Source: Trametes villosa
Taxonomy: Eukaryota > Basidiomycota > Agaricomycetes > Polyporales > Polyporaceae
Assembly: GCA_002964805.2 (NCBI GenBank)
Contig: PUDQ02000143.1
Coordinates: 716,246-780,245, forward strand
DNA length: 64,000 nt
Direction of reading: 5' to 3'
Shown here: positions 43,954 through 64,000 of the stretch, one piece after another
How positions within the stretch are numbered: position 1 is the first letter of the stretch
How the letters are laid out: every line of letters begins with the position of its first letter
Notes under the pieces: model-generated
What the model saw: only the letters and a program-made list of their open reading frames with translations
What the model was told of the DNA's origin: nothing
Databases searched by the model: none
Position numbers and translations under genes: made by a program

Positions 43954-43982
43954 GGGCGTTCAATGGATTCTAGCAGAGAGGT

Positions 43983-44358: not shown

Positions 44359-45684
44359 TGTAACGACCCTCCGCGGTCGTTACGGGTTATTGCAGGACAT
44401 AGCGCTAGTTGCGCTATGTCGCGAACGGTACCTAGCGCTAGTTGCGCTAGGATAAGATACCGCGTAGATATCATGTAATACATCAGGAAAAAGCGATTTC
44501 TCTGTAACTCAGTGGGCGGCTATGTAGCGCCTGTAGCTCCATAGCGCCTGTAGTGCACGTAAATATCTCATACCACAAGAAAGTGTCCCCAAAGCTGCAC
44601 CATACCATACCGAACCCCGACGACTCGTTCCGAACGTCTGTGCTTGGTAGTAGAGGCTCAGTTGTCTCGGATTTTGACGAGTGAACGGAGCATCCAACGG
44701 GCGCCTGCTACTCGGAGACAGCCGTCTGTATAGGCGCTCACAAAAATTGCCACGTCGCGCGTCGTCTCTCTCCTCCCTTCGCTCCTTCCCATATCCCTTC
44801 TGCTTCTCTCGAGTCTCCTTCATTGCTCTTCTCGCCGTCTCTGGCTGCATATACCCTCACGCAATCACTGCTTGGGTCTCTCTTTGGTGTGCTCGGGCCA
44901 ATGCTCTCGACCTCCTGGTTCTCAGTGCTCTTCAGTCCCTGCTCTCGACGTCCTCGGGCGACCGTCCCTCGCTGGCTCAGTGTCCAGACAAGGTGCATAG
45001 ATCTCTCGGGCCGTGCTCTATAAGTCTATCCTGGGCTGGCTCGACTCGTACTCGTGGCCTTGTACTGGCCTGTACATATCTGGTTTGTCCTTGTTGCACA
45101 CTGAGGCTGGGATGCTTGGACCCGGACTTTCTCGGTGGCATCTCGTCTGTGAAGAGGTGTGTCTAGACTGTATATCCGCCTACGCCCGAGTCTGTAACCG
45201 TCTATACTCGCCCACCCTTACTGCTTGCTCGCCCCACCTGCGCTGGCCCCTCTACTTTGCTGTCTACCTCTATGCTCTCGGCTCTCTCGTCGGTGTTCGC
45301 CTACATTTACCTCGCCTGCCTGGGCCTGTCTTCGTCTATGCCCCGATTTGTCTATGCCCCCGTCTAGCCCTCGCTCGTCTGCGCCTGTGCTGTTGTCTGA
45401 CCACACCTACAACGGCTCTATGCTTGTCTGCGCCCACCGCCGGTGCCACCCCCGGTTTGAGCTGCACCTTTCAGTTATCCCTCATGTAGTACGACCGCTG
45501 TGTAGTCCGTTAGCAAATATATTTGTCTACCTCGTCACTGCGGTGTGCTGCGATGCATGCGAGCCCAGGAAACAATATCCATAGCTGTATTACAGCTGCT
45601 ACGGCATGTTACATGGTGCTACATAGGACCGCGGGTTCGCATGTAAGTGGGGGATTGTCTACGAACCTACACTGTCTACTTAGC
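44359..45684 (+). repeat. Outer element 5' LTR/leader, left part
   Basis: Probable LTR start TGTAACGACCC. Hairpins lie at 44360-44383 (9-bp arms), 44396-44420 (10-bp arms) and 44431-44451 (8-bp arms). A CT-rich stretch at about 44755-45450 may be a promoter. It resumes after the inner element at 55900. If everything between belongs to the LTR, its length is about 1.5 kb, which is long; part may be another sequence. Confidence 0.45.
45680..45684. repeat. Target-site duplication, left copy
   Basis: TTAGC immediately before the inner 5' LTR; repeated at 55895-55899. Confidence 0.85.
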
Positions 45685-45886: not shown

Positions 45887-45948
45887 TTTTTTTGAGCTCT
45901 CTGAGGGTACTAGTCCAGACCAACAGGGCGAAGACTTGCACCATCAAA

Positions 45949-48900: not shown

Positions 48901-49143
48901 GTCCCGATTGACGTATGTGGCATCCGCGGCACTCACTACTTCGACATCGTCAATCTCGACCGATACGACTGCATAGTGGGAACCCCGTTCCTCAATGCCC
49001 ATGGCGTCGTATTGGACTTCAATACTCGAACGATACGAGTGGGCGAGAACTCGTTCCAGCCGTTTTCGTACGAAGAAGACTGCGATTATCGGTCGCGCAA
49101 GACAGACGCACGCGAACCGATGGCCGCGGCGGACAACAGCTGA
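45949..49143 (+). CDS. gag: Inner element Gag-protease
   Basis: Starts at ATG 45949 (MEGGLRQGETSSSRP), giving 1064 aa. A Ser/Pro/Thr-rich N-terminus is followed by a coiled coil (ALLEHQQALQYQADERQRQL). The capsid region has the retrotransposon-gag pattern (YSGENDHKVFYAWLDSYLSW, GAAEDWFSQEV). A CCHC zinc knuckle CYTCGKPGHFANDPAC starts at 48277. An acidic linker leads to a retropepsin with FDTGSTTDS (catalytic Asp codon 48763-48765) and the downstream flap/Ile-Val-Gly-Thr-Pro block. The frame ends at TGA 49141-49143; pol follows in the same frame. Confidence 0.9.
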   Translation: MEGGLRQGETSSSRPRGYAGEAGSTGRSRSGISARAASKQSARPQDPPTSWHDAPASGRSRHAQPDAPSFQTAPSSTHEQSTGQPATSGPQTSGDQGNTPSRPEVEDRTSRYSQEAAPRSTSNRGFGGSRASSRTSSLTTGSDPLPFQQGYSPATGRGRGNTSPLPAPRPRHANAFEFFESGLPTSTPTGQGSSSRRESSRADTASAIREARALLEHQQALQYQADERQRQLAENAKELNALAQRGQNFVREYMNDVQAMQSRLDRVLEENARTVDEIHQEMNSTKMRIEVPETSRAPSATTDHNGRSQADITVNDGRTATRTPRMSRNDRPHPQRDEPPQRGDRRRTQREEPPHLAQSQNGGPYGERVISPRYEDEDLDTYNERVRMGLDRHSRVRSAMKPHPEERVRFEDPDSELQGTTEPRSVDGYIPAHFAVPGGNTAAYSNSGVGKSISTAFRRTPGIDPRRPLPASTYGLSGAMDDPAGIPSAVTSVAVGTLRYHDAMLVQLCDNIRHKVGTLRPKLPDGVKQPKVENASKYSGENDHKVFYAWLDSYLSWLRAYNICGSETDEERVRLLRTVITGAAEDWFSQEVDHPSNSYRPTFEQAICALHRRFVHATSAAKATQDYENVRYHASEGVDGFAANLKQAAQLMVVPPNRYEMARRFLDGLPTDIYNIVVVHRSVRPEFCTMQEILEHARQAEEARRMVRTRERVDPKPAVAAVPKKDDRTRSGSRKDGNHRRDEPRMAVKPAPKDDRPATTALDSADRPRAPANGGTCYTCGKPGHFANDPACPEYHKREQRPPRPRARLHAQRVELDGDEADVSDSNDDDDAPPDNWGGSQYDTPSDEDESEVERAHAMRMIDQDDAVERVHAMREESDREEPNRFNASRAVPLAPRVVHSANVRRKDGSDQPIRNRMATSTMTALVNINGTQAYTLFDTGSTTDSLSPEFAFVTKAKRIPLERQIVLQLGCSGSRSKINYGTRVPIDVCGIRGTHYFDIVNLDRYDCIVGTPFLNAHGVVLDFNTRTIRVGENSFQPFSYEEDCDYRSRKTDAREPMAAADNS

Positions 49144-49192
49144 CGGCGGGACGTCCACTCGTCAAGTGCACCCCCACGACCGCGGGTGGACG
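49141..49192 (+). promoter_or_regulatory. Candidate stop-codon readthrough signal between gag-pr and pol
   Basis: TGA is followed directly by CGG. A 7-bp stem (CGTCCAC 49152-49158 / GTGGACG 49186-49192) begins 8 nt downstream of the stop. The pol frame is open from 49144 onward with no ATG near its start. UGA-CGG with a 3' stem is the type II readthrough context known from plant viruses. Confidence 0.6.
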
Positions 49193-52100
49193 CCGAGGGG
49201 GAGGAGGATGACGATGAGAAGGTCGTTGCCGGGACTCATCCTGACAGGAGACTCCCGGGACACCTACCTTACATAGTGGAAGAGATAATTAGTGAAAAAA
49301 AGGCGAGAGAAGAGAAGGCTGAGACGACGTGGAGCAACACTCCGCAGAAGGCTGATAGTCATACGGGTAAAGCCCCGACCGGGACGGCACTACCGACCGG
49401 CATGAGTCCGCAGACGCAGATGGAGCCCGAACCTGAGAAGGCACCGAGGACCGTCGAATTCGTGTTCCCCGCGGACCCAGAAGCTCCGCGGCGATACAAG
49501 CACAAATTCCGGCCTGATCCTCGTAATCCGAGTGATATGCCCGAAATCGCGGATCGCGAGCGGGTAAGCATCCATTCGTCTAGAGGCGTGAAGCGCGACA
49601 AGTATGGACATGTCGATCGTTACGGGATGAATGAGGTGCTTCAAACCGAAGCATTGGCCTATCTACGCGAACTACCTGAACGGGAACCACTGGCTCCGCC
49701 GCGATCGGACCGCATCCCCGCGCTGAGAGAGAAGTGGTTCAGGCAGTGTGAGGATTTACTCGGTCCCATTCCGCTCGAACTACCTCCGATGCGCGAAATC
49801 AATCACAAGATACCCCTCATCGACGAAGGGAAGCGCTACAACTATCACCATCCGCGATGCCCCGACGCGGTTCGTGATGAATTGCGCGAGAAAATGGGTC
49901 GTTATCTCAAGGCGGGATGGTGGGAGATGAAGCCGGCCAACCAGGCCGCGCCACTGCTCTGCATCCTCAAGAAGAACGGCAAACTACGTACGGTGGTTGA
50001 TGCCAGGCAACGAAACGAGAACACGCACAAGGACGTGACGCCGTTTCCTGACCAGGATAACATCCGGCAGGACGTGGCTCGCGCTAAGTATCGCTCAAAG
50101 ATCGATATGTCGGACGCATACGAACAAATACGGATCGAAGTCGAAGACGTTTGGAAAACCGCCTTCTCCACGATATTTGGCACCGCGGTCTCCCGAGTCA
50201 TGCAGCAGGGAGACTGCAACGCGCCCAGCACGTTCCAACGCTTGATGACATGGATATTCCGTGACTTCATTGGCGTGTTCGTGCACGTATATCTCGACGA
50301 CATTTTCGTATTCTCGCGGTCAATCGAAGAGCATGAAGAACACCTCAAGCTCGTCTTTGATCGCCTCCGGGAACAGCGCCTTTACCTCAGTCGCGCCAAA
50401 CTCGATCTCTACTCCGAGCGCATGGATTGTTTGGGGCACATGATTGACGATCATGGGCTTCACGCCGACTCGGACAAGATGGCGGTCATCAGGGATTGGC
50501 GGACGCCGAGATCCCAGCTGGAAGTACAACGATTCCTCGGACTAGTGCAATACCTCGCGCACTTCCTACCCGATGTATCAGCGTACACATCTCCGCTGGA
50601 GACGATCTGTCGCAACGGGGCCGCGTTCCATTGGAGACCCATACATCAAGCCTGCCTCGATCACATCAAAGCGTTGGCTTGCAAGGCTCCGGTACTCAAA
50701 CCTATCGACCCCAAATCTGCCGACCCAGTATGGGTGATCACCGATGGATCGATGGTAGGCGTTGGAGCAGTCTACGGTCAAGGCCCAGACTGGCGCAGCT
50801 GTCGACCGGCCGGATTCATGTCGAAGAAATTCACCGCCGCGCAACGGTCGTACCCGACCTATGAGCAGGAAGCTCTAGGCATTCTCGAAGCACTTATGAA
50901 GTGGGAGGATCGGCTCATGGGCCGGCCCATCCGCATCGCTACCGACCACAAGTCTCTCACCACCTGGAAGACGGTCATGCGGGACACGCGTACCAATCGC
51001 CTCATACGATGGGACGATTACATGTCCCGCTTCGACTACGACATTGAACATGTCGAGGGTGCCGAGAATAAAGTGGCCGACTGCCTATCACGATACTACG
51101 AGAATGATCGGCCGGATGAACTCCAACCATCGCACGTTTACGTGAACGCCGACGTGCGGCTGAATCCAGAAATGGACGAGCTCACGAAAACCAGGCGTGA
51201 AGAACTAGAGGAGGAATTATCACTGCATGCTCTTCGTGAGGTTACCGAGGAACGCGCCCGTGAGGCCGAAGCGTTACGACACACGACGGAGACGAACGAC
51301 GAACGTCCCAATGGCGACGTTCAATCGGTCACATTGAAGGACGCACTCCAGGATGGAGAACCGCTAGATGGAATACTGGGAGATCTGGCTGGTTACTGGG
51401 AGATGGTCAAATCGGCCTATCCCAATGACCCTACGTTCGGCAAGGTAGTGGCCAACGTGAAAGCGTACCCTACTTTCTCAATGCGAGACGGTCTTCTCAC
51501 CGTGCACACGCGGTTAGGATTCGACTGCGTGTGCATTCCTAACGGGAAGCTCGGCGCGAGGACACTCGTAGAACTCGCCATTGATCACGCGCACAAAACA
51601 CTGGGGCACTTAGGGGTCCAAAAGACCTCGGAGTACTTACGGCGCTGGTTCTGGTGGCCCCGATTCCACAAGGACGTAGAACGTTTTTGTGCGTCGTGCG
51701 GCGTATGCCAGACGACCAAATCAAGTAACGCGCCACCGGTGGGACTGCTGCACACCATGCCCATCCCGCTGTTTCCGTGGCAATCAATGGGTATGGACTA
51801 CGTTGGTCCGTTCCCGGAGTCGGGAGGGTTCAATTATTTGCTGGTCGTCATTTGTCGATTGACGAGCATGGTGCATCTGATACCTTGCCGGGTAACGGAT
51901 ACCGCCGCCGTAATCGCGTCGTACTACGTGCGAGATGTAGTGAGGTTGCATGGACTACCGGAGTCAATTGTCTCGGACCGTGACTCCAAGTTCACGTCCG
52001 TGTTCTGGCGCGAAGTACACCGCATACTTGGCACCAAGCTACTCATGTCTACGGCCTTCCATCCTCAAACGGACGGGGCATCGGAACGTGCAATTCGCAA

Positions 52101-52899
52101 CGTGGCCCAAATTCTTCGCGCAGTAGTGGCTGCCGATCAAACCGATTGGGTAGACCGCGTGCCAATGGTGGAATTTGCGCTCAACTCGAGTACCAGTTCC
52201 ACAACGGGATTTGCGCCCTTCGAACTGAATTATGGACACATGCCGCGCATGGCTCGGTTCGAGGCCACTCCATCTCCCTACCCTGGGGTGCTCGCATTCG
52301 CGGATCGCGCTCGAATCAACCTGGAACACGCACACGACGCCATACTTCAATCTCGCATTCGGCAGACGCACCATGCTAACCAACGTCGTTCGGATGAAAC
52401 CACTCCGTACGAGGTTGGGGATATGGTGTATCTGTCCACGAAAAACTTGCAACTTCCGAAGAACCGTGCGCGCAAACTGGCGCCCAAGTTTATAGGGCCA
52501 TACCGTATAGTGCGCGCGAATGCGGCTACGTCGAATTTCACACTCGAACTGCCGGATGAGCTGGTGAAGCGGAAGATATTCCCGACATTTCACAGCTCAC
52601 TCTTGCGGCCCCACGAGCCGAACGATGATTTGGCATTCCCGGGGCGGGAAGCCAATAAGTTCTACGATTTTGGGGCACCAGACGAGCAAGAATGGATGGT
52701 AGACGAAATTTCCGGGCATCGATGGACTGGCAAGAAGATCGAATTCTTGGTCCATTGGACATTAGGTGATCACACTTGGGAGCCCCTGGCTAACTGCGAT
52801 GAGCTTCAGGCACTGGATGACTATTTAACCCTCATGGGGGTGCGGTCATGGCAGAGCCTGCCGCGCAAGGAGCGGCGGAGCCGCACGCGCAACGCTTAA
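49144..52899 (+). CDS. pol: Inner element Pol (RT-RNase H-integrase-chromodomain)
   Basis: Open in the gag frame from the codon after the TGA; about 1251 codons. RT: PLLCILKKNGKLRTVVDAR, FPDQDNIR, DMSDAYEQI, and the YLDD box at about 50290. RNase H: VITDGSMVGVG, YEQEALGILEA, ATDHKSL. Integrase: the H2C2 zinc domain (HAHKTLGHLG ... CASCGVC), then the catalytic core MGMDYVGPF, VSDRDSKFTS and HPQTDGASERAIR (D, D, E). After a basic linker a C-terminal chromodomain (WMVDEISGHRWTGKKIEFLV, HWTLGDHTWEP) should guide insertion into heterochromatin. No internal stop. The ORF overlaps the third ORF by 52 nt. Confidence 0.9.
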   Translation, partial: RRDVHSSSAPPRPRVDAEGEEDDDEKVVAGTHPDRRLPGHLPYIVEEIISEKKAREEKAETTWSNTPQKADSHTGKAPTGTALPTGMSPQTQMEPEPEKAPRTVEFVFPADPEAPRRYKHKFRPDPRNPSDMPEIADRERVSIHSSRGVKRDKYGHVDRYGMNEVLQTEALAYLRELPEREPLAPPRSDRIPALREKWFRQCEDLLGPIPLELPPMREINHKIPLIDEGKRYNYHHPRCPDAVRDELREKMGRYLKAGWWEMKPANQAAPLLCILKKNGKLRTVVDARQRNENTHKDVTPFPDQDNIRQDVARAKYRSKIDMSDAYEQIRIEVEDVWKTAFSTIFGTAVSRVMQQGDCNAPSTFQRLMTWIFRDFIGVFVHVYLDDIFVFSRSIEEHEEHLKLVFDRLREQRLYLSRAKLDLYSERMDCLGHMIDDHGLHADSDKMAVIRDWRTPRSQLEVQRFLGLVQYLAHFLPDVSAYTSPLETICRNGAAFHWRPIHQACLDHIKALACKAPVLKPIDPKSADPVWVITDGSMVGVGAVYGQGPDWRSCRPAGFMSKKFTAAQRSYPTYEQEALGILEALMKWEDRLMGRPIRIATDHKSLTTWKTVMRDTRTNRLIRWDDYMSRFDYDIEHVEGAENKVADCLSRYYENDRPDELQPSHVYVNADVRLNPEMDELTKTRREELEEELSLHALREVTEERAREAEALRHTTETNDERPNGDVQSVTLKDALQDGEPLDGILGDLAGYWEMVKSAYPNDPTFGKVVANVKAYPTFSMRDGLLTVHTRLGFDCVCIPNGKLGARTLVELAIDHAHKTLGHLGVQKTSEYLRRWFWWPRFHKDVERFCASCGVCQTTKSSNAPPVGLLHTMPIPLFPWQSMGMDYVGPFPESGGFNYLLVVICRLTSMVHLIPCRVTDTAAVIASYYVRDVVRLHGLPESIVSDRDSKFTSVFWREVHRILGTKLLMSTAFHPQTDGASERAIRNVAQILRAVVAADQTDWVDRVPMVEFALNSSTSSTTGFAPFELNYGHMPRMARFEATPSPYPGVLAFADRARINLEHAHDAILQSRIRQTHHANQRRSDETTPYEVGDMVYLSTKNLQLPKNRARKLAPKFIGPYRIVRANAATSNFTLELPDELVKRKIFPTFHSSLLRPHEPNDDLAFPGREANKFYDFGAPDEQEWMVDEISGHRWTGKKIEFLVHWTLGDHTWEPLANCDELQALDDYLTLMGVRSWQSLPRKERRSRTRNA

Positions 52900-55664
52900 C
52901 ACGTTGCGCCCCCACGCCCACGATCACGGGATCGTGTAGGCGCTTAGGGTGGCTGAACTGTACAGTTCGCCCGTCGGAGTTTGAACCTAAGCGCTCATCC
53001 GTGCTATGCCGTCCGCATACTCGGAGCCGACTCCCCTTCCTTATCATCGCGTGCGAACACCCGCTCAAGATGGACCGCCGATCTTCGAACAACGCGCCCC
53101 CTGACCGCGGCTACGCCTCCCCGGACCGGCGCAGCGATGGATGGCAGTCGCCCCCGACCGCGCGGCAACACCGCTCGGAAGGGAACGCGTATGACGCGTC
53201 CAGAGGGGGAGGGTACATGGGACCGGCGTCTAGTATGGGCAACACCCAGTACTACTCGTCGGCCCCGATGGGACCGTTCAACGGCCCGGGACCTGTATAC
53301 CCAGGCCCGGGTTCGGCGGGACCCTACCAGCAATACAACGACTACGAGGCGCCGCCGCCTCCACCACGAGACGACACCATCACCGCCATTGTCCGATTAT
53401 CGTCGGAAAATGGTGCGCTGAGTCAACGTCTCTCGGACTGCCGACTCGAACTCGCGAACGGCCAGCACGCCCAGCAGCAGCTAAAGCGTGATCTCGCGGA
53501 CGCGCGCAGCCATAATGCGAGGCTGCAGGAGGAAAACCGCGCGCTCAAGGCCGAGGTTGATCGACTCAAGCGGGAACTGGCGCAGGACGAGGCAGCGCGC
53601 CCCCACAAGCGGCGGGACGATCGAGACGACCGCCCCCCGTCCCCATCTCGTAGCGACCGAGGACGCCGAGAGGAGCGGTTCGACCGACGCGACTATGGAC
53701 GAGGAGGATCGCACTACTCCCCGCGCACGCGCGAGCGATCTCCTCCACCCCGCAACCGGTCACCACCACCACGGCATGGACATGCGCGGAGCGGAGCACC
53801 ACCCAGACCGCCGCTACAGGAGCGGATCCGGGAGCCCTCTCCGGCCCCACCCTCACTCCAGGAGAGGATCCAAAAGATCCCTCCTCGACCTCTTAAGGAC
53901 CGCATCGAGGCGCATGCAACCCCGTCCACGCCCGTGACTACGACCGCGGTGGGAGATAGCCGCACCGCAACGGACGTGCGCTCCACACCGGACAAGCGGG
54001 CGACCAAGAAGCCCGTAGTCGAGGACGTCGTGATGACGGAAGCCACGGCCGCGGCGCCCGCAACTCAACCAACGGCCCCGACACGATCGGACTTCGTCCT
54101 TCCCGTTACCCGCGGGATGTCGAGCGAGGAGATCGAGGCGGCAGCCAACCAGCCAGACGAGCAGTTGGAAGCGTCGGGGCAGCCCCAGTCCCCCTGGTAC
54201 CTACGGTGGAAGAGTCGGCTGTCTACGGCGGAAGAGTACGCGGACATCGACATGGACGCACAGTCGGACAGCGACGAGGACGAGGAGGGCGATAACATTC
54301 CGAACGAGCCACACTCGCCGTTCCCCGACCCCCTCGCACTCCGCATCAAGGACCTCCTACCCGAAGGCGAAGCCAATGAGGTCTACCGGCTGTCCAAGGT
54401 GCAAGGGAAGACCTCGTCGTCGGCGAAGGCTGGGGCTCCCGGGGCCGTCGAGGAGTTCAGGAAGACGACCTCCACCCTCGGCAAATGGGCCCAGACCACG
54501 ATCGCCAGCGTTGTCCAGGCGCATAACCTGCGCTGGATGGCGGTAGTGGAATTCGACGCGCGAGCAATCGCATTCTACAAGGCGGTCATCCGGCTGTACA
54601 ACCACCCCACCATCCGACGTTCCGCGGGCGCTCGCTACCTCCTCCACGTCTACCCCAAGGACGTAGCGGAGATGAACCGCGGGTTCCGCCTCGACATGCC
54701 CACCGCGCGTCCCCGACTAGCGACCGGGGCATTCCCACCGCCACATGCGGGGGTAAAGGAGGTCGTCGCCTACTACCGGAACGTGCCCACGTCTCACTGG
54801 GGCATGGGCATGCGCAAGGCCGACGGCACCCTTCCCGAGGTCAACGGGACTACGTTTGGGGTACCGCATCAAAAGGACGCGTTCGCGGCGTTCATCCTCA
54901 AACACGTGGTCACGGTTCCTCATGGTGTGCGGCGCCCCGACCTCAAGCCTCACCCCGCGCAGACAAAAGCCGGGCTGGTCACCCTCTTCTCTGTGAAGGG
55001 GATGTACGAGGCCATCGTCGAGAAGGGCGGGTACAAGGCGGTGAAGCCCGCTTGGCCCGCCCCCTACTTCTTCTCTGTGTCCCCGCCCAACCTCGCTTGT
55101 ATGGCCGCGTGGATGTGTACGCACGGCGTCGGCACGAAGACGGAACTAATCGCGTACCTCCGGCGCTGGGCTCGAGTCGCCCGCAACCGTGGCTTACACC
55201 GCGTCGACAACGATGCGACGGATTGGCCGGACTTCCCGCGCACGACCGCGGAGTTCATGGACTCACCCGCAGCCGCCGACGTAGTCGAGTATCGCGCGCT
55301 GCCGTGGGGGCCGCCGGCGTTTGCGAGCGAGGACTTCGCGATTCCCCCGAAGCCCTCACGCCAGACGACGAGCGTCGTCACACAGCCCACGGCCCCGACT
55401 GCCACACAATCCGTCACGGCGACCGCATCCGCGTCGATTGGCTTGCCCGACCGCAGGCGTACTCATTCGCCTCCTCGAGGCTCCGCCATAGCCCGACCAG
55501 CGACATCGTCGCCCCGCATCACCAGGCAGGCCGAGGTCGCCCCGCTGGACTACGGACGCGCGAGTGACGACGAGCTCGTCGACTACGACGACGAATTCGG
55601 CTCATGCCTGCCCAACGGCGACCAGCCCATATTCGGTGACGAGGACGAGCCTCCATCTGCGTAG
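52848..55664 (+). CDS. Inner element third ORF, function unknown
   Basis: ORF of 938 aa from the ATG overlapping the pol end. An alternative ATG at 53070 (MDRRSSNNAPPDRGY) gives 864 aa and may be the real start, because the first 74 codons lie over hairpin-rich, UTR-like DNA. Order: Gly/Pro/Tyr-rich segment; coiled coil (LQEENRALKAEVDRLKRELA); Arg/Asp/Ser-rich stretch (RRDDRDDRPPSPSRSDRGR); disordered Pro/Thr part; an acidic patch (SDSDEDEEGD); and an ordered domain of about 250 residues (WYLRWKSRLSTAEEYADIDM, LGKWAQTTIASVVQAHNLRW). It has no signal peptide, TM segment or enzyme motif, so it does not look like an Env. The outer element has an ORF of similar layout in the same place. Confidence 0.75.
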   Translation: MAEPAAQGAAEPHAQRLTRCAPTPTITGSCRRLGWLNCTVRPSEFEPKRSSVLCRPHTRSRLPFLIIACEHPLKMDRRSSNNAPPDRGYASPDRRSDGWQSPPTARQHRSEGNAYDASRGGGYMGPASSMGNTQYYSSAPMGPFNGPGPVYPGPGSAGPYQQYNDYEAPPPPPRDDTITAIVRLSSENGALSQRLSDCRLELANGQHAQQQLKRDLADARSHNARLQEENRALKAEVDRLKRELAQDEAARPHKRRDDRDDRPPSPSRSDRGRREERFDRRDYGRGGSHYSPRTRERSPPPRNRSPPPRHGHARSGAPPRPPLQERIREPSPAPPSLQERIQKIPPRPLKDRIEAHATPSTPVTTTAVGDSRTATDVRSTPDKRATKKPVVEDVVMTEATAAAPATQPTAPTRSDFVLPVTRGMSSEEIEAAANQPDEQLEASGQPQSPWYLRWKSRLSTAEEYADIDMDAQSDSDEDEEGDNIPNEPHSPFPDPLALRIKDLLPEGEANEVYRLSKVQGKTSSSAKAGAPGAVEEFRKTTSTLGKWAQTTIASVVQAHNLRWMAVVEFDARAIAFYKAVIRLYNHPTIRRSAGARYLLHVYPKDVAEMNRGFRLDMPTARPRLATGAFPPPHAGVKEVVAYYRNVPTSHWGMGMRKADGTLPEVNGTTFGVPHQKDAFAAFILKHVVTVPHGVRRPDLKPHPAQTKAGLVTLFSVKGMYEAIVEKGGYKAVKPAWPAPYFFSVSPPNLACMAAWMCTHGVGTKTELIAYLRRWARVARNRGLHRVDNDATDWPDFPRTTAEFMDSPAAADVVEYRALPWGPPAFASEDFAIPPKPSRQTTSVVTQPTAPTATQSVTATASASIGLPDRRRTHSPPRGSAIARPATSSPRITRQAEVAPLDYGRASDDELVDYDDEFGSCLPNGDQPIFGDEDEPPSA
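52887..52994 (+). other. Structured pol-ORF3 junction in inner element
   Basis: In succession: 8-bp-arm hairpin 52887-52909 with the pol TAA in its loop; 7-bp-arm hairpin 52919-52936; the 14-bp palindrome GAACTGTACAGTTC 52955-52968, enclosed by 9-bp arms GCGCTTAGG 52940-52948 and CCTAAGCGC 52986-52994. Confidence 0.7.
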
Positions 55665-55692
55665 ACCGTGGACCCGGTCTAGAGGGGGAGGG

Positions 55693-55894
55693 TGTAACGC
55701 GGGGACATGTGACCACGTGCGTTACTCCATAGACGCCCGCGCGCGTGCGCGGTGGCTGGTACTGTACAGTAGCACCGCTGACTGCGCGCCTGGAGACCTG
55801 ATGTACTTATCGCTTTACTACACACTGGACTAGAATCTACTGCTTGACACAGCTCTATTCTGGTGTGCTCAAGGCGACAACCGTCACTGTTACA
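55693..55894 (+). repeat. Inner element 3' LTR (202 bp)
   Basis: Identical to 45685-45886; preceded by the polypurine tract and followed by TTAGC. Confidence 0.92.
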
Positions 55895-55899
55895 TTAGC
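55895..55899. repeat. Target-site duplication, right copy
   Basis: TTAGC, matching 45680-45684. Confidence 0.85.
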
Positions 55900-56209
55900 C
55901 TACGTAGCCCTACATAGGCATCTGGTTTTTTCCTGATGTAGATAGACGCGTACGACGCGCGGGTATTCGGAGCCCGCGCGTCTGGTGAGGGCAGCCTTCT
56001 ACTACTGCCCCACCATCTCCCGAGTACGCCGAGCCCTAATAGAGCCCGGACCAGAGTACTAGGAGACTGCGGGCATCAGAAGTGCCCGACACCCGTGAGT
56101 TTAACACTTTTTTACTCTTACCGTGTTAGAATCGCCCGATTTGGGGCTCGACGTGCAACCACGTCATCGAACTCTAATCCCCTAGCAACCCCATCCGCAT
56201 CCAGCAAGA
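55900..56209 (+). repeat. Outer element 5' LTR/leader, right part
   Basis: Continues the sequence cut at 45684. A likely LTR end is TTTAACA at about 56106, followed by a T-rich run (CTTTTTTACTC) like that after the inner LTR. It contains hairpins such as GCGCGGG/CCCGCGC near 55957-55979. Confidence 0.45.
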
Positions 56210-57364
56210 ATGAGCCACCACAGCTCAAACAACCCCACGGACCCGCGAACTCCGCGGGCCTCGACTTCTACCTCGAACCAACCCCCCCGCGCTGAATTCG
56301 GCGCGGGTCAACCCGCCACGTCACTCCCTCGGTCTACAGAGGGCGAGGGTGGACTCTCGATACCACAATCAGTGGTATCCGGCGGCTTAGACGACACCAC
56401 GAACCCTACTAGGGGTCGTGCGACTGCCAGCGTGCATGCTGGACGACCGGCTTTAGAACAAGCAGGCCCGTCACGACGATCGGGCTCCGCTGCGAGCTCG
56501 CTTAACAGTCGGAGTCTTGCCAACATTGGGCAAGACTGGCAGGATCTGCGTGAAGGACGCTCGCAGCAGTTGGCTGCGAGCTCGTCAGTGCCGGCGGCAC
56601 CGGCACTGAACCTTGCGCCGTTGCGCATGGTAGTTCGGGAATCGAAGAAACGATTCCGTCTGCTGCAGAAGCAGATACTCGAGGCAGAGAACGAGACGAA
56701 TCTCGCTCTGCAGTCCGCATTAGCGGAATTAGGCCTAGGTGACCTAATGGACGAAGAAGACGAGGAGGACCTTACCGCTCGCGTTATAGCGGTAAGTGAG
56801 GATGCCGATGCAGGGCACCACACTCATCAGCCTATCGTGGCTGGTGAGGATGAAAGCGACGAGTTGCCTATGACAAGGGCAACCATAGACACACATATCA
56901 GCTCAGCTGCTGATCCGCAAATGGAGAACTTCGCGGATGATCGCGAAGTAGAGGATGCACTATTGGATCCTCGCCAGCGTATCGTCGCTGGCCGGATTGA
57001 ACGACTGAGTCGTGCGGGGCTATATGATCCACCGCACACGACGGCGCAACTGCCGCCGTCCTCATCAACCCGTCGAACTGGCGATGTACAGAATGCCGTT
57101 CCTACTCGGAACGTGGCATTCGATCATCCGCAAGGCTCGACTAGGGCTGCGCACGTCGCGCAGCCAATTCCATCCTCGCCCAGCGATTATCCCGCTGAGC
57201 CTATGTCTGCGTCCCAAGGACCCGCGTACCGTCAAGAACGGCCGCCTGGAATATGGGACTGGAAACACCTCGACGTTCAATGGGAGCGTCTGCATATTAC
57301 GGAGGATTACCTCCTATGCAGCCAGCGGAAACTACGGAACCGCTGGCATACACGGGGCCTGTAG
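56210..57364 (+). CDS. gag: Outer element Gag N-terminal part
   Basis: 384-codon ORF from MSHHSSNNPTDPRTPRAS. A Ser/Pro/Thr-rich start is followed by a helical coiled-coil region (RFRLLQKQILEAENETNLAL) and an acidic stretch. It corresponds to the N-terminal part of the inner element's Gag. It ends at TAG 57362-57364, about 110 bp into the next ORF, which lies in the -1 frame (open from 57199). The join falls near 57250, after PPGIWD, where the downstream frame takes over with GLETPRRSMGASAYYGG, a counterpart of inner Gag DPRRPLPASTYGL. I saw no canonical slippery heptamer; a mutation or an intron is possible. Confidence 0.7.
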   Translation: MSHHSSNNPTDPRTPRASTSTSNQPPRAEFGAGQPATSLPRSTEGEGGLSIPQSVVSGGLDDTTNPTRGRATASVHAGRPALEQAGPSRRSGSAASSLNSRSLANIGQDWQDLREGRSQQLAASSSVPAAPALNLAPLRMVVRESKKRFRLLQKQILEAENETNLALQSALAELGLGDLMDEEDEEDLTARVIAVSEDADAGHHTHQPIVAGEDESDELPMTRATIDTHISSAADPQMENFADDREVEDALLDPRQRIVAGRIERLSRAGLYDPPHTTAQLPPSSSTRRTGDVQNAVPTRNVAFDHPQGSTRAAHVAQPIPSSPSDYPAEPMSASQGPAYRQERPPGIWDWKHLDVQWERLHITEDYLLCSQRKLRNRWHTRGL

Positions 57365-59238
57365 TAGGGCCTCGTGATGGTGTAACGATCAGCCGTCTCG
57401 TACGAATGATAGATGAGATGGTCGGATCACCTCCAGAGGGTGATCCCCCTGCGTACTTGAAGGTGGCGAAACTTGCGCCACCCAAGACGTACAAAGGGAA
57501 AGACGATCTCGATGCACTCGAGGTATGGCTGCGAGGCCTCCTCGAGTACTTCAACACGTTGAGGATCACGGGTCCTAGGATGGACCGTGACCGTGTCCGA
57601 ATATTGGGCACTGCACTTAGCGGTGATGCCGCTACGTGGTTCTACAACACTATACAGTCTCCGTCGCGCGATAAGCGTGACTGGATATTCGAGGAGACTG
57701 TAATAGCCCTCTATCGCAGGTTCATCCATAAGGATTTGAACCTACTTGCGGAGCAACAGTATGCTTCGCTAATTTACCGCTCCAGTGACGGAGGGGTCGC
57801 AGCTCTATATGAGAAGCTGCTGTACATATCCGAACGGATGTGGGAAAAGCCTACGCCCTTCCAATTGCGTAGGAAGTTCATTGAGGCGTTACCCGAAGAT
57901 ATCGAGTACCTACTTACCGTTGTGAACGGTATGTCACCTCAAGAACACGACTTGGCACAATTGTACCAAGTGGCTCAAGATATTGAGCAGAAGTCGCGCG
58001 CTATGCGGCTTCGGAAGTTAGCTCGCGAACCTTCACGAGCACATACTATACCGAACACCGGTGCTAAGCCGACGGTAGAGGCACACCCGCAACGAGGAGT
58101 GCGTAATGTAATTAGGAAGCCAACGGCTTCGGCTTCCCGTAATATTACCAGTACTACACATAAAGCTACTATTGGCTTTAAACGCCCTTCGACAGATGTG
58201 CGAGGTGGTTCGGTACCGCGTCAGTCTGGCGTGGTGCAGCAATCCGCGTCAACTGCGCGGATTGATAAGACTCAGAAAGCACCTCTTAAGTGCTATTCCT
58301 GTGGTCAAATAGGCCACTTCGCGAGCGACGCGAAATGTCCCAACTATGGGAAGAAATCCGCTACAGTACAGCGGATGTTCGCTCAGCGTGTCATCGACGA
58401 CACATCGGACGACGGCAACGAGCCGTCTGCACAACAAGACGTTGCCGACGACAATGTGGCAACTCATCTCGAGGATCAAGAGCCTGAACCCGAGGCTCTT
58501 GCGGATAGCCCAGACGATAACGGAGAATATCCGTTGTCAGACTATGGTCTGGAAGGATCTCAGTATGATCCTGACGAGGATCATTACGCATCTCCTGGAG
58601 AGGGAGATGCAGATGAATACTTCATCGCAATGCGTATTGCACCGCTAGAAGAGGCCGAAGCTGAGCCTCTTCGGTTACACACCATGGCGGTTGCACCCAC
58701 GCGAGGGTACAAGCAGGCCTGGTTATACGACAACAAGATACGTTGTATAGACGATCCCGCGACGCAACCTGTGCGCACGCTCCAGGCCCAGCGCACACTA
58801 TGCGCTGAGATTACAATCAATAAGGTCACAGCTCTGGCCTTATTCGACTCGGGCTGCACGACCGATTCGATTACGCCAGAGTTGGCGTATCTGAGTCGCG
58901 CAGATCGTATCGATCTGGCGCAGCCTGTAGGGCTGCAATTGGGAACCAAGGGCAGCAAGACGCGCATCAATTATGGTGCGCAAGCAGAGCTCAAGGTGGG
59001 CTCTGTGAATACTACGCAATATTTTGACGTAGTAGACATCGATAAGTACGATGTCGTGTTGGGAACTACCTTCTGCAGGAAGCATGGAGTAATCCTAGAC
59101 TTCCGTGCAGGTACGGTAGTAATCAACGGCAAAAGTTTGCTGTTGTTCGATCCTGAGGTTTCGACGACTGCGAAACCCGAACCCAAGAAATGGGTTCCTC
59201 AATTCCAATTCGAAGGTACTGCTAAACCTAAGCAGTAG
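57253..59238 (+). CDS. gag: Outer element Gag capsid, zinc knuckle and protease
   Basis: 661 codons. Capsid: YKGKDDLDALEVWLRGLLEY, SGDAATWFYN, ALYRRFIHKD. Zinc knuckle CYSCGQIGHFASDAKC begins at 58291 (residue 347). Protease has FDSGCTTDS with Asp532 (58846-58848): DSG rather than the inner element's DTG, both accepted in retropepsins. The ORF ends at TAG 59236-59238, and pol continues in the same frame. Coding DNA is full of perfect hairpins, for example 58240-58264 and 58648-58672. Confidence 0.85.
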   Translation: MGLETPRRSMGASAYYGGLPPMQPAETTEPLAYTGPVVGPRDGVTISRLVRMIDEMVGSPPEGDPPAYLKVAKLAPPKTYKGKDDLDALEVWLRGLLEYFNTLRITGPRMDRDRVRILGTALSGDAATWFYNTIQSPSRDKRDWIFEETVIALYRRFIHKDLNLLAEQQYASLIYRSSDGGVAALYEKLLYISERMWEKPTPFQLRRKFIEALPEDIEYLLTVVNGMSPQEHDLAQLYQVAQDIEQKSRAMRLRKLAREPSRAHTIPNTGAKPTVEAHPQRGVRNVIRKPTASASRNITSTTHKATIGFKRPSTDVRGGSVPRQSGVVQQSASTARIDKTQKAPLKCYSCGQIGHFASDAKCPNYGKKSATVQRMFAQRVIDDTSDDGNEPSAQQDVADDNVATHLEDQEPEPEALADSPDDNGEYPLSDYGLEGSQYDPDEDHYASPGEGDADEYFIAMRIAPLEEAEAEPLRLHTMAVAPTRGYKQAWLYDNKIRCIDDPATQPVRTLQAQRTLCAEITINKVTALALFDSGCTTDSITPELAYLSRADRIDLAQPVGLQLGTKGSKTRINYGAQAELKVGSVNTTQYFDVVDIDKYDVVLGTTFCRKHGVILDFRAGTVVINGKSLLLFDPEVSTTAKPEPKKWVPQFQFEGTAKPKQ

Positions 59239-59268
59239 GACAACGTAGCGAGTTCCACAAGAGTGGAA
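59236..59268 (+). promoter_or_regulatory. In-frame stop and hairpin between gag-pr and pol (outer)
   Basis: TAG GAC, then a 7-bp stem-loop GTTCCAC/GTGGAAC at 59252-59269. The downstream frame is open with no early ATG, parallel to the inner element. Confidence 0.5.
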
Positions 59269-62200
59269 CCTCCCCACTCTCGTTACGACAAGTCCGGAGG
59301 GTCGTCAGGAGGGGGAGGGAACGGTGTAGAAACCGTTAGAATTCCTGAACGACACCAAGGGCGAGCCAAAGATAGCTCGCCGCCAAACATTGGCGAGAAA
59401 TTTATTCCGACGATGCATTCATCGCGAGGTCCTAGAAGGGACAAGTATGGGTACGAGGACCCATACGGCATCAATGAGCTCTTGGACAAGATAGCCAAGG
59501 AGCAGTGGGAAGACGAACAGATCCGACGAACCCACGCTGGGTTCGTCATAGACGAGGAAGAGGAGGAGCTGAAAGCTCTTCGTGACCGCTGGTATGCGGC
59601 CACCGAGGACATTATGCGTCCTGCGCCGGAGCATCTCCCGCCGTTCCGGGAGATCAATCACCATATCCCGCTCATCGATGAAGCGAAGAAATATCGCTAT
59701 CATCTCCCACGTTGCGCGGACGTGGTGAAACCAGAACTCATAGCGAAAATCAATCGCTATGTGAAGGCAGGCTGGTGGCGACCGGTAACGGTCACGCAAG
59801 CAGCGCCTCTGCTATGCGTTGCCAAGAAGAATGGCAAGCTGCGCACCGTACTCGATGCGCGACAACGAAACCAGAACACGGTGCACAATTTGACACCGTT
59901 TCCGGATCAAGACCAGATCCGGATGGACGTTGCTCGAGCGAAGTATCGCTCGAAGATTGATCTGTCCGACGCCTACGAACAGATTCGCATAGTTGCGGAG
60001 GACGTGTGGAAGACCGCGTTCGCGACGCCTTACGGGACGTTCGTGAGCGAGGTCATGCAACAGGGCGACACCAATGCCCCGTCCACGTTCCAACGTCTCA
60101 TGACAGCCATATTTCGTGACTGTATCGGAAGGTTCGTCCATGTGTATTTGGACGACATTTTCGTATTTTCGGACTCCAAGGAGGAGCACGAAGAACACTT
60201 AAGGATAGTGTTCGAAAAGCTTCGAGAGGCGAAGCTTTTCCTAAGCCGCAGCAAGTGCGACTTATACTCCAAAGACTTGGATTGCCTCGGTCACCGAATA
60301 GATGACAAGGGACTACACGCTGATACGGACAAGATGAGCCGTATCCGGAACTGGCGGACACCTCGCTCGTATAACGAGGTGCAGCGGTTCCTCGGACTAG
60401 TGAACTATCTGGCACACTTTATGCCAGATGTAACGGCGTACACATCGCCGTTATCGGACATGGTCCATAACGACCGTCCGTTCGTATGGCGCGCACTGCA
60501 CGACAAGTGCTTTGAGTCTATCAAAGCACTCGCGTGTAAGGTGCCCATACTGAAGCCGATAGATCCGGCTTCCACAGATCCCATTTGGTTGATCTGTGAT
60601 GCGTCCGTGTATGGACTCGGAGCGTTATACGGGCAAGGACCCGACTGGCAAACTTGCAGGCCAGCCGGGTTCCTGTCGAAGAAATTTACGTCCGCACAAC
60701 GGGCGTATCGCACCTATGAGCAAGAAGCCCTCGCCATCATGGAAGGCTTGTTCAAGTGGGAGGACAAGCTCATAGGACGAAAGCTCAATATAGTCACCGA
60801 CCATAGAGCTCTCGAGTTCCTTGAGGGACTCAAGCGTCCTAACCACCGTCAGATACGGTGGTACGAATTCTTGTCGAGGTTCGACAAGACGATTACCTAT
60901 ATTCCAGGTAAACTGAACAAAGTAGCGGACTGTTTGTCCCGCTACTTCGAACACGACGACATAGAGGAACTAGCCGAAGATTTCGACTATGTTAATGCCG
61001 ACTTGCGGCTAGATCCTGAAGGGGATGATCTCCCCTTCTCCCGTCTCATCGAGCTACGCGCAGCTCGAGTGTTGCGTCGATCTGCGCGGAAACTCGCGCA
61101 GCTAGAAACAGAAAACGCGCACGCTACACGCGTGCAGGAACCAACAGAGGAACGAGTCGTAGAATCGGCTCGTTACGCTGCACACGCACCTATCTTGGTG
61201 ACTGCAGCAACCACGGACAGCGACAATGTGACGCTGTCGGACTCGCTATCTGCGGGTCCCTCGTTGCGTGTCTGGGTAGAAGGAGACGACGGCTTTCTGA
61301 AAGCCGTCAAGTCAGGTTATGTTAATGACCCGACGTTCCAGAAAATACTGGAACGGCCTACTCAGCATCGCGCATTCGTAATGCGCGAGGGTGTGATATA
61401 CACCAAGAACCGTGAAGGCGACGAGGTACTATGCATACCGCGTGGTCTGTATCGAAAACGTGCTCTACAAGAGCTCGTGTTAGACCAAGCGCATAACGCG
61501 CTTGGACACCTTGGACCTCAGCGCACGTCAGAGTACGTGCGCAAGTGGTTTTGGTGGCCCGCGTTACGCAAGGATGTAGACAAGTTCTGCATTTCGTGCG
61601 GCGTGTGCCACACCACGAAAATAAGTACACAGCCCCCTATAGGGCTGTTACACTCGCTACCGATACCTACGGTGCCATGGACGTCTATGTCCATGGATTT
61701 CTTCGGTCCGTTTCCGCCCTCGCACGGATACGACTACATATGGATTGTAGTCTGTCGGTTGACCTCGATGGTACACCTCATACCCATCAAGACAACCGAC
61801 ACAGCGTCAGAACTGGCGCTGGTCTACTTCAGGGAAGTAGTCCGTCTACACGGGCTACCGTACTCCATAGTCTCTGATAGAGACTCGAAGTTCACCTCCA
61901 AATTCTGGAAGGAACTGCATCGCCTTATGGGGGCGAAGCTGCTTATGTCCACGTCATTCCATCCACAGACGGATGGATTATCTGAGCGTAGTATACGCTC
62001 AGTGTCGCAGATACTTCGTGCACTGGTAGCCCCTGACCAGTTGGACTGGTATGAGAAGCTACCGATAGCGGAATTCGCTATCAACTCTGCGGTAAGTTCT
62101 ACCATAGGGTTCGCTCCGTTCGAGTTGAACTACGGGTATCTCCCGCATTCTATGAACGGAATCGGAACGGACACTCCGTTTCGAGGAGTGCGAGAGTTCG

Positions 62201-62784
62201 CACTCAGAGCCAAGGCGAACCTGGAGATGGCGCATGATGCCATCATCGAGGCGCGAGTGCGCCAGACACACTATGCGAATAAGCATAGGCAAGCCGAACC
62301 CGACTTTGAGGTCGGGGACAAGGTATACCTATCGACAAAGAATTTGTCGATACCTAAGGGCCGAGCACGAAAGCTCGTGCCTAAATACATCGGACCGTAT
62401 GCTATAATTGAAAGCATACCCAGTACGTCAAACTACGTACTGGAGCTACCAGAAGAACTCCGGAACCGAAGGATACACCCTCGGTTCCACGTGTCGCTAT
62501 TACGACGCTATGAGCCAAACGACGATGCGGTATTCCCGCATCGTGAAGCGAAGTCGTATTACGACTTCGGCAATGAAGACTCCACCGAATGGTTGGTGGA
62601 AGAGATTATCGGCCACGAATGGAATGGCAACAAGTGCCAGTTCCACGTGCGGTGGACGATGGGGGACCACACCTGGGAACCTTACGAGCACTGCAAGGAG
62701 CTCGTAGCATTAGACGAATATTGTCGTCTAATGGGCGTATCCTCTTGGCGCGCGTTGCCCAAGAAAACATCCGCCAAGACCTAG
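59239..62784 (+). CDS. pol: Outer element Pol (RT-RNase H-integrase-chromodomain)
   Basis: Open in the gag-pr frame after the TAG; about 1181 codons. RT: PLLCVAKKNGKLRTVLDAR, FPDQDQIR, DLSDAYEQI, YLDD near 60147. RNase H: LICDASVYGLG, YEQEALAIMEG, VTDHRAL. Integrase: HNALGHLG ... CISCGVC, MSMDFFGPF, VSDRDSKFTS, HPQTDGLSERSIR. Chromodomain: WLVEEIIGHEWNGNKCQF, RWTMGDHTWEP. All catalytic Asp/Glu and zinc-binding residues are present, so the enzyme looks functional. It is clearly homologous to the inner Pol along its length but diverged. Its nucleotide sequence is dominated by perfect short inverted repeats that the inner pol lacks. Confidence 0.88.
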   Translation, partial: DNVASSTRVEPPHSRYDKSGGSSGGGGNGVETVRIPERHQGRAKDSSPPNIGEKFIPTMHSSRGPRRDKYGYEDPYGINELLDKIAKEQWEDEQIRRTHAGFVIDEEEEELKALRDRWYAATEDIMRPAPEHLPPFREINHHIPLIDEAKKYRYHLPRCADVVKPELIAKINRYVKAGWWRPVTVTQAAPLLCVAKKNGKLRTVLDARQRNQNTVHNLTPFPDQDQIRMDVARAKYRSKIDLSDAYEQIRIVAEDVWKTAFATPYGTFVSEVMQQGDTNAPSTFQRLMTAIFRDCIGRFVHVYLDDIFVFSDSKEEHEEHLRIVFEKLREAKLFLSRSKCDLYSKDLDCLGHRIDDKGLHADTDKMSRIRNWRTPRSYNEVQRFLGLVNYLAHFMPDVTAYTSPLSDMVHNDRPFVWRALHDKCFESIKALACKVPILKPIDPASTDPIWLICDASVYGLGALYGQGPDWQTCRPAGFLSKKFTSAQRAYRTYEQEALAIMEGLFKWEDKLIGRKLNIVTDHRALEFLEGLKRPNHRQIRWYEFLSRFDKTITYIPGKLNKVADCLSRYFEHDDIEELAEDFDYVNADLRLDPEGDDLPFSRLIELRAARVLRRSARKLAQLETENAHATRVQEPTEERVVESARYAAHAPILVTAATTDSDNVTLSDSLSAGPSLRVWVEGDDGFLKAVKSGYVNDPTFQKILERPTQHRAFVMREGVIYTKNREGDEVLCIPRGLYRKRALQELVLDQAHNALGHLGPQRTSEYVRKWFWWPALRKDVDKFCISCGVCHTTKISTQPPIGLLHSLPIPTVPWTSMSMDFFGPFPPSHGYDYIWIVVCRLTSMVHLIPIKTTDTASELALVYFREVVRLHGLPYSIVSDRDSKFTSKFWKELHRLMGAKLLMSTSFHPQTDGLSERSIRSVSQILRALVAPDQLDWYEKLPIAEFAINSAVSSTIGFAPFELNYGYLPHSMNGIGTDTPFRGVREFALRAKANLEMAHDAIIEARVRQTHYANKHRQAEPDFEVGDKVYLSTKNLSIPKGRARKLVPKYIGPYAIIESIPSTSNYVLELPEELRNRRIHPRFHVSLLRRYEPNDDAVFPHREAKSYYDFGNEDSTEWLVEEIIGHEWNGNKCQFHVRWTMGDHTWEPYEHCKELVALDEYCRLMGVSSWRALPKKTSAKT

Positions 62785-62875
62785 CGGATGTACGAAGCGC
62801 AACATGCGCTTCGTGGTCAAGACTACCCGAGTGAGTAGTCGTGGTGAAGGACAGAGCACGCGCAGAGAGCGCGTG
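62299..62875. repeat. Example block of tandemly arranged perfect hairpins
   Basis: Fourteen inverted repeats in 577 bp: 62299-62316, 62330-62352, 62365-62380, 62397-62419, 62420-62443, 62462-62488, 62522-62544, 62549-62569, 62581-62600, 62708-62733, 62767-62791, 62792-62814, 62821-62840 and 62857-62875. Arms are 6-10 bp and loops 3-11 nt. They cover the pol C-terminus, its stop codon and the spacer after it. Confidence 0.9.
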
Positions 62876-63031
62876 ACCGTGAAGTAGTACGTCACGTGCA
62901 GGCTCGCGTGCGCGAGGCAGCCACCGACGCGTTCGGACTCCGCCGGCGCTTTAAGACGGCGACCTCGCGAATGCAGGGTCATAACCGACCTCTGCCACCT
63001 CACCACCACCACCAACAACAACGCCTGCGCC

Positions 63032-64000
63032 ATGAACGACGCCCCCCAAGACAACGCACAAGCCAGCGGCTCCGGGCAGCAAGCCTCGGAGCAACAGGGG
63101 TCGCAACCAGCGGCCCCTCAACAACAAAACATCCCCTTCCCCCAACCCTCGCAGTTTCTGCTGCCGCAACAAGCGGCAGCTCCCGCGTTCTCGTCCATGC
63201 CGGGGGTAACCCACCCCCAGCAGTTCCCGCATGCCTTCTCGCAGGGCATGCCCGCCTACGGATTTCCGTATGGTGGCGGCTTCCAGTTCCCGCATCAAGC
63301 GGGTCCTGCATTCCAGAGCGCGCCCAGTTCGAGCGCGCCGATGCCACAGACTGGTGGCATCCCCCTCATGCCCTTCTCGAGCATGACCTGGGCGCCCGTA
63401 GCGGGCCAACATTTGTTGGTCGCGCACAGCGACAACTGCGCTGTGTGCGCGGACTTTGTCCGCCACTACAACTCGGCGGCGTCAGACTCGACGTTCCGGG
63501 ACGCGCAGACGCGCGTCCAGTCAGAACTGCAGCAGCGGTTCTGGCGGCACTTCGAGGAGCACCAGAGGGTGGAGGAGGGGAGGAGCCGCGATCGGATCGC
63601 GGAGCTCGAGGCGAAGCTCCAGAAGATGAAGGAGCTCGTCGACGAGACGAAGTCGATCCGGGACAGGTACCGGAGCGAGCGCGAGGCCGCTCGCCAGGAG
63701 CGCGACGAGTACGAGCGCGAGCGCGATGAAGTGCGCTCGCAGTTGGAGGCTGAGCTCAGTCGGGCTCGGCACAGGAGAGCGTCGCCTCCGCGCGACGAAC
63801 GACGACGCGACCCGAGGGAACTCAGCCCTCGGAGGAGGGATACTGCGAACGATAGGTCGTTCGCGTCGACATCAAGGAGTTCAGCGCTGTCCGCTGGGCC
63901 CAGCTTGATGCCGATCGTGTTGCTGCCCAGCGGGGCAGGACCATCGAGGACTGGAGCGTCGCAGATGACGACGCCAAATGTGGCAGGACCGTCGAACTCG
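63032..64000 (+). CDS. Outer element third ORF, partial at window end
   Basis: Opens MNDAPQDNAQASGSGQQ 248 bp after the pol stop and stays open to the window end (323 codons seen). Layout: Gln/Pro/Phe/Gly-rich low-complexity segment; a short HSDNCAVCADFVRHY stretch with a CxxC pair; a long charged coiled coil (IAELEAKLQKMKELVDETKS, REAARQERDEYERERDEVRS); then an Arg/Asp/Ser-rich part (DERRRDPRELSPRRRD). This parallels the inner third ORF up to the acidic region. No enzyme motif or TM segment is seen. Function is unknown; an RNA-binding or assembly cofactor is a guess from the coiled coil plus Arg-rich pattern. Confidence 0.75.
   Translation, partial: MNDAPQDNAQASGSGQQASEQQGSQPAAPQQQNIPFPQPSQFLLPQQAAAPAFSSMPGVTHPQQFPHAFSQGMPAYGFPYGGGFQFPHQAGPAFQSAPSSSAPMPQTGGIPLMPFSSMTWAPVAGQHLLVAHSDNCAVCADFVRHYNSAASDSTFRDAQTRVQSELQQRFWRHFEEHQRVEEGRSRDRIAELEAKLQKMKELVDETKSIRDRYRSEREAARQERDEYERERDEVRSQLEAELSRARHRRASPPRDERRRDPRELSPRRRDTANDRSFASTSRSSALSAGPSLMPIVLLPSGAGPSRTGASQMTTPNVAGPSNS

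Follow-up and report, generated by a model that had tools for sequence, protein, structure and literature searches.

Short local hairpins saturate a Ty3/gypsy-type retrotransposon of Trametes villosa and are probably maintained by selection on its folded genomic RNA

The stretch of Trametes villosa DNA analysed here (64,000 nucleotides of contig PUDQ02000143.1, assembly GCA_002964805.2, positions 716,246 to 780,245 of the forward strand; hereafter the window) ends inside a long terminal repeat (LTR) retrotransposon, to judge from its encoded domains a Ty3/gypsy element, whose sequence is saturated with short perfect hairpins. Taken together, the element (family A), its other genomic copies and the related family B make it probable, in our view, that in A, and less strongly in B, the genomic (plus-strand) RNA is under purifying selection for local folding along nearly its whole length, which would best be read as the retrotransposon counterpart of the genome-scale ordered RNA structure (GORS) of viruses. 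The counts below refer to these parts of the element:

44359..44483, plus strand: 5' LTR of family A (the outer element), first stretch, separated from the rest by a nested insertion
55938..56106, plus strand: remainder of the 5' LTR of family A, including the hairpin at 55954-55982 (arm 10)
56210..57364, plus strand: open reading frame (ORF) of the N-terminal gag frame (gag1), gag being split in the window copy
57253..59238, plus strand: gag2, with a zinc knuckle (zf-CCHC, above the Pfam cut-off) and an aspartyl-protease-like region
59263..62784, plus strand: pol, with reverse transcriptase (RT), RNase H, integrase zinc-binding domain and Tf2-type SH3 domain (Pfam)
63032..64000, plus strand: start of the third ORF (ATG at 63032), cut by the end of the window, whose last base, 64000, is also the end of the contig

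The first-pass annotation, which had pointed out the hairpins from the letters alone, placed the element at 56110 to 64000; its actual start lies in the LTR, at 44359-44483 and continued at 55938-56106, and it runs on past the contig end.

Counted as perfect inverted repeats with arms of at least 6 bases and loops of 3-12, hairpins occur at 13-24 per kb in 56001-64000 versus 0-10 per kb in 1-56000, and in a stricter class, with arms of at least 8, the corresponding densities are 3-9 and 0-3 per kb. Over the 8,063 bases of family A the wider class occurs once per 52 bases and the stems span 26.7% of the sequence, such that the proposed saturation stands while the proposed spacing, a repeat every 35-45 bases, was somewhat too dense. 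Synonymous-codon shuffles (200 each for gag1, gag2/protease, pol and the ORFs of a second, inner element nested within the outer one; 300 for the third ORF) yield far fewer hairpins: gag1 has 20 versus 3.2 (shuffle maximum 9), gag2/protease 36 versus 5.4 (maximum 12) and pol 68 versus 8.7 (maximum 17), an excess of 6-8 fold in gag and pol that reaches about 35 fold in pol for arms of at least 8 (29 versus 0.82). The third ORF has 21 versus 4.5 in its window part (4.7 fold) and 42 versus 12.5 when taken whole from the C3 copy (3.4 fold). Because the coding parts exceed their synonymous shuffles, the hairpins are made by synonymous codon choice, as the first-pass annotation had supposed. The excess is present in the LTR, gag, pol and third ORF of family A, and also in family B (72% identical). 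Four noncoding pieces are enriched, the longest of which (L038, with some 170 bases beyond the LTR) has 13 hairpins versus 1.6, the three short ones each, taken alone, merely equalling the maximum of their shuffles; the LTR part at 44359..44483 has three, all with arms of at least 8, where shuffles give 0.4 for arms of at least 6 and 0.03 for the stricter class. Two copies of family B, sampled in six pieces, are enriched 2.4-4.3 fold; three of the pieces (L013 gag1 and both L016 pol pieces) lie within the shuffle maximum for arms of at least 6.

Neither the host DNA nor the inner element shares this excess: positions 1-44000 hold 114 hairpins versus 106.8 in 40 dinucleotide shuffles, and the inner element, against synonymous shuffles, has 6 versus 8.5 in gag, 9 versus 8.7 in pol and 9 versus 10.4 in its third ORF. 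All 13 hairpins listed at first pass match letter for letter, and in the 7-16 other copies that cover each of them they are intact or lack a single pair; the estimate of one hairpin with 8-bp arms per 7-8 kb by chance was close to the computed figure of about one per 4-7 kb. Four locations deserve to be singled out:

59901..59923, plus strand: hairpin over the FPDQDQIR motif, intact in 7/7 other copies examined
60214..60240, plus strand: longest of the named hairpins (arm 11), intact in 7/7 other copies examined
62299..62875, plus strand: densest named stretch, 577 bp with exactly eight hairpins with arms of at least 8, as had been counted before
57717..57744, plus strand: hairpin in which subfamilies differ by two compensatory pair changes, with all four substitutions at third codon positions

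The FPDQDQIR codons (from 59899) form a hairpin, whereas the equivalent FPDQDNIR of the inner element has no arm above 4, in agreement with the earlier reading; the broader claim that the inner element lacks the property holds for perfect hairpins only, since a mild folding excess is present there, as described below.

In family A the commonest spans of hairpins with arms of at least 8 are 21 and 23 nucleotides. Among those with a loop of 3, none has an arm of 8, against 7 with arms of 9 and 4 with arms of 10. The excess in pol is limited to loops of about 3-12 nucleotides (wider pairs number 10 versus about 13 expected). Loops are A-rich, though in pol not at third codon positions, and their sequences show no convincing shared motif.

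Folding energies extend the picture beyond perfect repeats. The minimum folding energy difference (MFED), obtained on 350-nucleotide fragments with our own dinucleotide shuffles and not with the NDR program of the viral studies, averages 31.6% in family A (45 fragments; minimum 9.9, maximum 57.4), 19.9% in the 3' piece of the C3 copy and 26.3% in family B, whereas the inner element averages 7.0% and host DNA (1-12000) -0.5%. The relatives L020 and L021 give 11.9% and 7.3%, both stretches possibly including sequence outside the elements; since these two and the inner element show a mild excess, a low level of folding along the whole genome may be widespread among elements of this group and extreme in A and B. 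The plus strand gives a higher MFED than the minus strand in family B (29.1 versus 23.8, p=0.002) and in the inner element (6.0 versus 3.3, p=0.04).

The many copies of family A allow the constraint to be placed in time, within one genome whose copies are interrelated and whose sites are accordingly not independent. Private changes, found in one copy, arose mostly after insertion, and shared changes, found in two or more copies, have passed through transposition. Among eight sequences per region (the window and seven others; 7,963 sites; stems defined by arms of at least 7 in any copy), private changes fall on 36/1648 stem, 14/662 loop and 122/5653 other sites, and shared changes on 8/1648, 22/662 and 118/5653. 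Maintenance of pairing in the chromosome was considered and is not supported by the private counts, which are not depleted in stems (36/1648 versus 122/5653). When all 8,063 sites are ranked by predicted plus-strand local pairing, shared changes drop from 4.28% to 0.81% as pairing rises compared with 3.97% to 3.11% for private ones. Conservation extends to predicted pairs that lie outside perfect hairpins (shared changes at 39/2405 paired versus 88/1861 unpaired sites, p=5e-9), and at third codon positions the shared counts are 21/1341 paired versus 88/745 unpaired, with the contrast retained at G/C sites (11/936 versus 34/312) and at A/T sites (10/405 versus 54/433); at first and second positions it is weak. 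Because shared changes avoid paired sites and private ones do so much less, the constraint acts mainly within the retrotransposition cycle.

More distant comparisons point in the same direction. The relic A' (L058, on C128), 82-84% identical to A and aligned to window positions 55939-57410, differs from A, when CpG and deamination changes are left aside and stems are defined on A, at 5/248 stem, 30/151 loop and 68/770 other sites; loops change at least as freely as other sites, both here and among the copies of A. Decay of this relic consists chiefly of C>T and G>A changes at CpG, spread equally over stems, loops and the rest, which suggests CpG methylation and deamination after insertion. In family B, all four comparisons show fewer differences in stems than at other non-CpG sites (6/361 stem versus 197/3524 other for L013-L016), but the shared changes in B are few (5/578 versus 93/5592). 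The hairpins of A do not stand where those of B do: 5/45 stems of A are retained by B in pol and 2/22 in gag2, and the frequency of unchanged pairs roughly equals the product of the site identities, such that positions were replaced between the two families with density remaining high. Changes on both arms that keep pairing do occur. At 57717-57744 they distinguish L043, L055 and L056 from most other copies, the window and L057 holding an intermediate C.A at the outer pair; A-A' has 7 versus about 2.8 expected, five of the seven at CpG, A-L055 has 1 versus 0.2 and A-L061 has 1 versus 0.35, and family B has none in four comparisons.

Mutations that unpair sites are lost from the lineages that transposed, the private, mostly post-insertion ones being much less depleted, and these observations would be accounted for if the genomic RNA were selected to fold into consecutive local hairpins, mostly of 20-26 nucleotides; point substitutions sorted by selection suffice as their origin. 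The gain would lie in a compact RNA that resists hybridisation, more than in sequence-specific recognition of the hairpins, and might consist in shielding from silencing, an interplay with which had been the third cause suggested at first pass, from antisense pairing or from nucleases, or in fitting the particle. That the selected molecule is RNA and not cDNA is suggested by regressions in which plus- and minus-strand energies compete and the plus strand carries the signal (z 3.5 versus 0.6; with covariates 2.8 versus 0.2). Selection for a folded genomic RNA, one of the causes put forward at first pass, is therefore the best supported of them, with action at the RNA rather than the cDNA or DNA level only moderately supported.

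Several results weigh against this interpretation and deserve to be considered together. DNA energies fit as well as RNA energies; zero lies within the bootstrap interval (-0.014 to 0.082) of the plus-minus difference in area under the curve (AUC); in family B the energy test fails (AUC 0.52); and the strand difference in MFED is not significant in A (35.8 versus 32.3, p=0.1), L020 or L021. Where just one of the two strands can pair, there is no conservation (plus-only 12/251, minus-only 16/357). Tolerance of G.U over A.C was entertained as proof of selection on RNA and dropped for want of a consistent bias: fixed mismatches are 5 versus 5, shared mismatches 8 versus 13 in A and 4 versus 1 in B, and predicted pairs 17 versus 14 (shared) and 45 versus 46 (private). 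No enrichment of long-range pairs is seen, and in pol loops of at least 13 are at chance. Private changes at third positions, too, are somewhat less frequent at paired sites (56/1341 versus 55/745; by count, 42 paired versus 21 unpaired at G/C and 14 versus 34 at A/T). In 19 gag-region sequences, with perfect hairpins alone considered, sites with at least three minor copies show no significant depletion in stems (7/476 versus 60/2174 elsewhere, p=0.14), with 9/213 in loops and singletons similar across classes. With stems taken from either sequence the non-CpG contrast between A and A' weakens to 13/171 versus 100/908, and A versus L055 shows none (8/341 stem versus 43/1813 other).

The same evidence leaves some room for selection on single-stranded cDNA hairpins or DNA cruciforms, for instance in favour of strand transfer, protection or integration, which we regard as unlikely though not negligible. 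It would explain Watson-Crick pairing with little strand asymmetry and the equal fit of DNA energies; however, the joint regression, family B and the inner element all favour plus-strand folding, and the hairpins fill every part of the element where a DNA signal would be expected at its ends. Cruciform selection in the chromosome is further contradicted by the undepleted private changes.

About equally unlikely, in our estimation, is the possibility that the RT of the clade formed by A and B corrects quasi-palindromes, the nascent cDNA folding back such that one arm is copied from the other, with selection on the proteins filtering the outcome. Quasi-palindrome correction by template switching would yield local, perfect, strand-symmetric hairpins, and those of family A are indeed strictly local, Watson-Crick without wobble bias, nearly symmetric between strands and maintained mainly in the retrotransposition cycle; the hairpin at 57717-57744, in which a single lineage has two matched pair changes, fits as well. 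Yet the one-arm overwriting that such template switching implies was looked for in family A and not found. Only 1 of the 36 predicted pairs with shared variation in A has two Watson-Crick states and B offers no matched doubles in four comparisons, when under neutral correction roughly one in two correctable mutations would be expected to end up as a double; conservation, moreover, also covers predicted pairs that belong to no perfect hairpin. A slightly more doubtful variant is that this RT proofreads hairpins, arm-to-arm repair shielding the retro-genome from its own copying errors. This idea fits because of the missing wobble bias, the near symmetry of the strands, the 21- and 23-nucleotide spans and the restriction to the retrotransposition cycle, and is disfavoured because matched double changes are rare; if true, proofreading would drive a sequence to local palindromes and hold it there.

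Of the template switching offered at first pass as a cause, the block form, in which one arm remains ancestral and the other is rewritten, finds no support. At every codon position the arms have diverged from family B no further than the remaining sites, and the difference between the two arms of a hairpin does not exceed that between random pieces, a test that is weak with third positions near saturation. Hairpins with at least two changes between relatives are one-sided in 7/21 rows versus 28% in controls, where some rows are the same hairpin seen from both sides and one counts a gap.

Dispersed packaging signals, whereby each hairpin would be a Gag-binding site as proposed for RNA viruses, seem improbable to us: the size and number of the hairpins and the peak of spans at 21 and 23 nucleotides would suit them, but the loops carry no convincing motif and change as fast as or faster than other sites, whereas the packaging signals described in PMC6281560 share a recognition motif. 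Chance, base composition or an assembly artefact can be practically dismissed, since beyond the short noncoding pieces that alone merely reach their shuffle maximum nothing speaks for them, and they are refuted by the synonymous and dinucleotide shuffles, by host DNA and an inner element at chance, and by 24 near-full pol-piece matches (the window's own included) at 97-100% on many contigs.

The assignment of family A to Ty3/gypsy rests on the order gag/protease, RT, RNase H, integrase, found by Pfam as in that group, with RVT_1, RT_RNaseH, Integrase_H2C2 and SH3_Tf2-1 above cut-off in this order in pol, and protease models and the rve core matching below their cut-offs. No Chromo match was found in its pol at E <= 0.001, which speaks against a chromovirus. 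The LTR measures at least 288 bp: the C3 copy has one at both ends, aligned over 288 bp at 96.9%, and the window itself carries just the 5' LTR, interrupted, of which 44359..44483 is 99.2% and 94.4% identical to the two LTRs of the C3 copy and 55938..56106 is 100% identical to its 3' LTR over 168 bp. The third ORF encodes 849 amino acids in the C3 copy and has no Pfam match at E <= 0.05; the ORF list also has a longer, GTG-initiated frame at 62896, which is not the same frame. Gag (56210-59238) consists of two overlapping frames in the window copy; in L013, a copy of family B, the matching region reads as two frames with a single stop between them.

A pol query of 1 kb has 41 matches of all lengths in the genome, the 24 near-full-length ones already mentioned among them; family B lies at seven places, 74-75% identical to the query, and further relatives, including the inner element, at 65-71%. 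Among the pol relatives listed, the nearest named ones, from Trametes pubescens and T. sanguinea, are 76% identical, and another reaches 86%. One scan of viral contigs returned no relatives.

The surroundings of the 5' LTR form a three-level nest (44359-56106). Judged by eye, an insert at 44484-55937, bounded by short terminal inverted repeats, CATCAGGAAAAA / TTTTTTCCTGATG, interrupts the outer LTR at a TA and is itself split by the inner gypsy element (about 45685-55896) with the target duplication TTAGC. The LTRs of the inner element are 100% identical over 204 bp, for which reason its insertion is taken to be recent; its pol gives a sub-cut-off chromodomain match, and its third ORF weak coiled-coil-type matches (DivIC and ATG16), also below cut-off. 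Adjoining the outer LTR on the left, at 43668-43957, are two long near-palindromes (190 and 74-76 bases, 84% self-complementary), unrelated to the hairpins of family A.

These findings suggest that whole-genome folding of the GORS type, above the viral values we found, can evolve in a fungal LTR retrotransposon. GORS has been linked to the interferon system, which the fungal host lacks, and genome-wide RNA folding would for this reason be separable from vertebrate immunity. Explanations of such folding thereby become testable in a culturable host, in which the many copies provide an internal control, private (mostly chromosomal) versus shared (transposed) mutations dating the constraint.

The first-pass annotation knew of no described element with this property, and in agreement with it we found no hairpin-saturated LTR element in the open-access literature, most subscription papers falling outside that scope. 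The closest retrotransposons are Ty3 and Ty1 of yeast, whose genomic RNAs have structured regions, the RT region included; in the available text of PMC11381356 these RNAs, like that of HIV-1, are described as mosaics, those of the two Ty elements being A-rich and with stable, highly structured regions of up to 30%, and hairpin saturation is not reported there. Dispersed packaging signals resemble family A in consisting of many small stem-loops across a genome, but share a coat-protein recognition motif (PMC6281560), unlike the free loops without motif of family A.

The nearest known system, which the first-pass annotation did not name, is viral GORS. As PMC7642675 describes it, GORS consists of sequential, largely unbranched stem-loops, with pairings mostly non-homologous between related viruses and lower diversity at paired sites; MFED is about 15% in SARS-CoV-2, 7.5-10.7% in hepatitis C virus (HCV) and 12.5% in human pegivirus (HPgV), no vertebrate RNA virus on record at that time exceeding 23.4%. 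GORS has been linked to innate sensing through work on vertebrate cells (PMC3950689). Family A resembles this pattern in its high MFED along the whole element, in its many sequential, unbranched stem-loops within coding sequence whose pairings are not kept between relatives, and in the lower diversity of its paired sites. It departs from it in that its hairpins are shorter and strictly local, in that its MFED of 31.6%, on our own shuffles and not the NDR program, exceeds the viral values found (maximum 23.4%), and in that it is a fungal retrotransposon encoding RT and integrase, not a positive-strand RNA virus. By this analogy, family A would work like GORS without being a member of the viral class.

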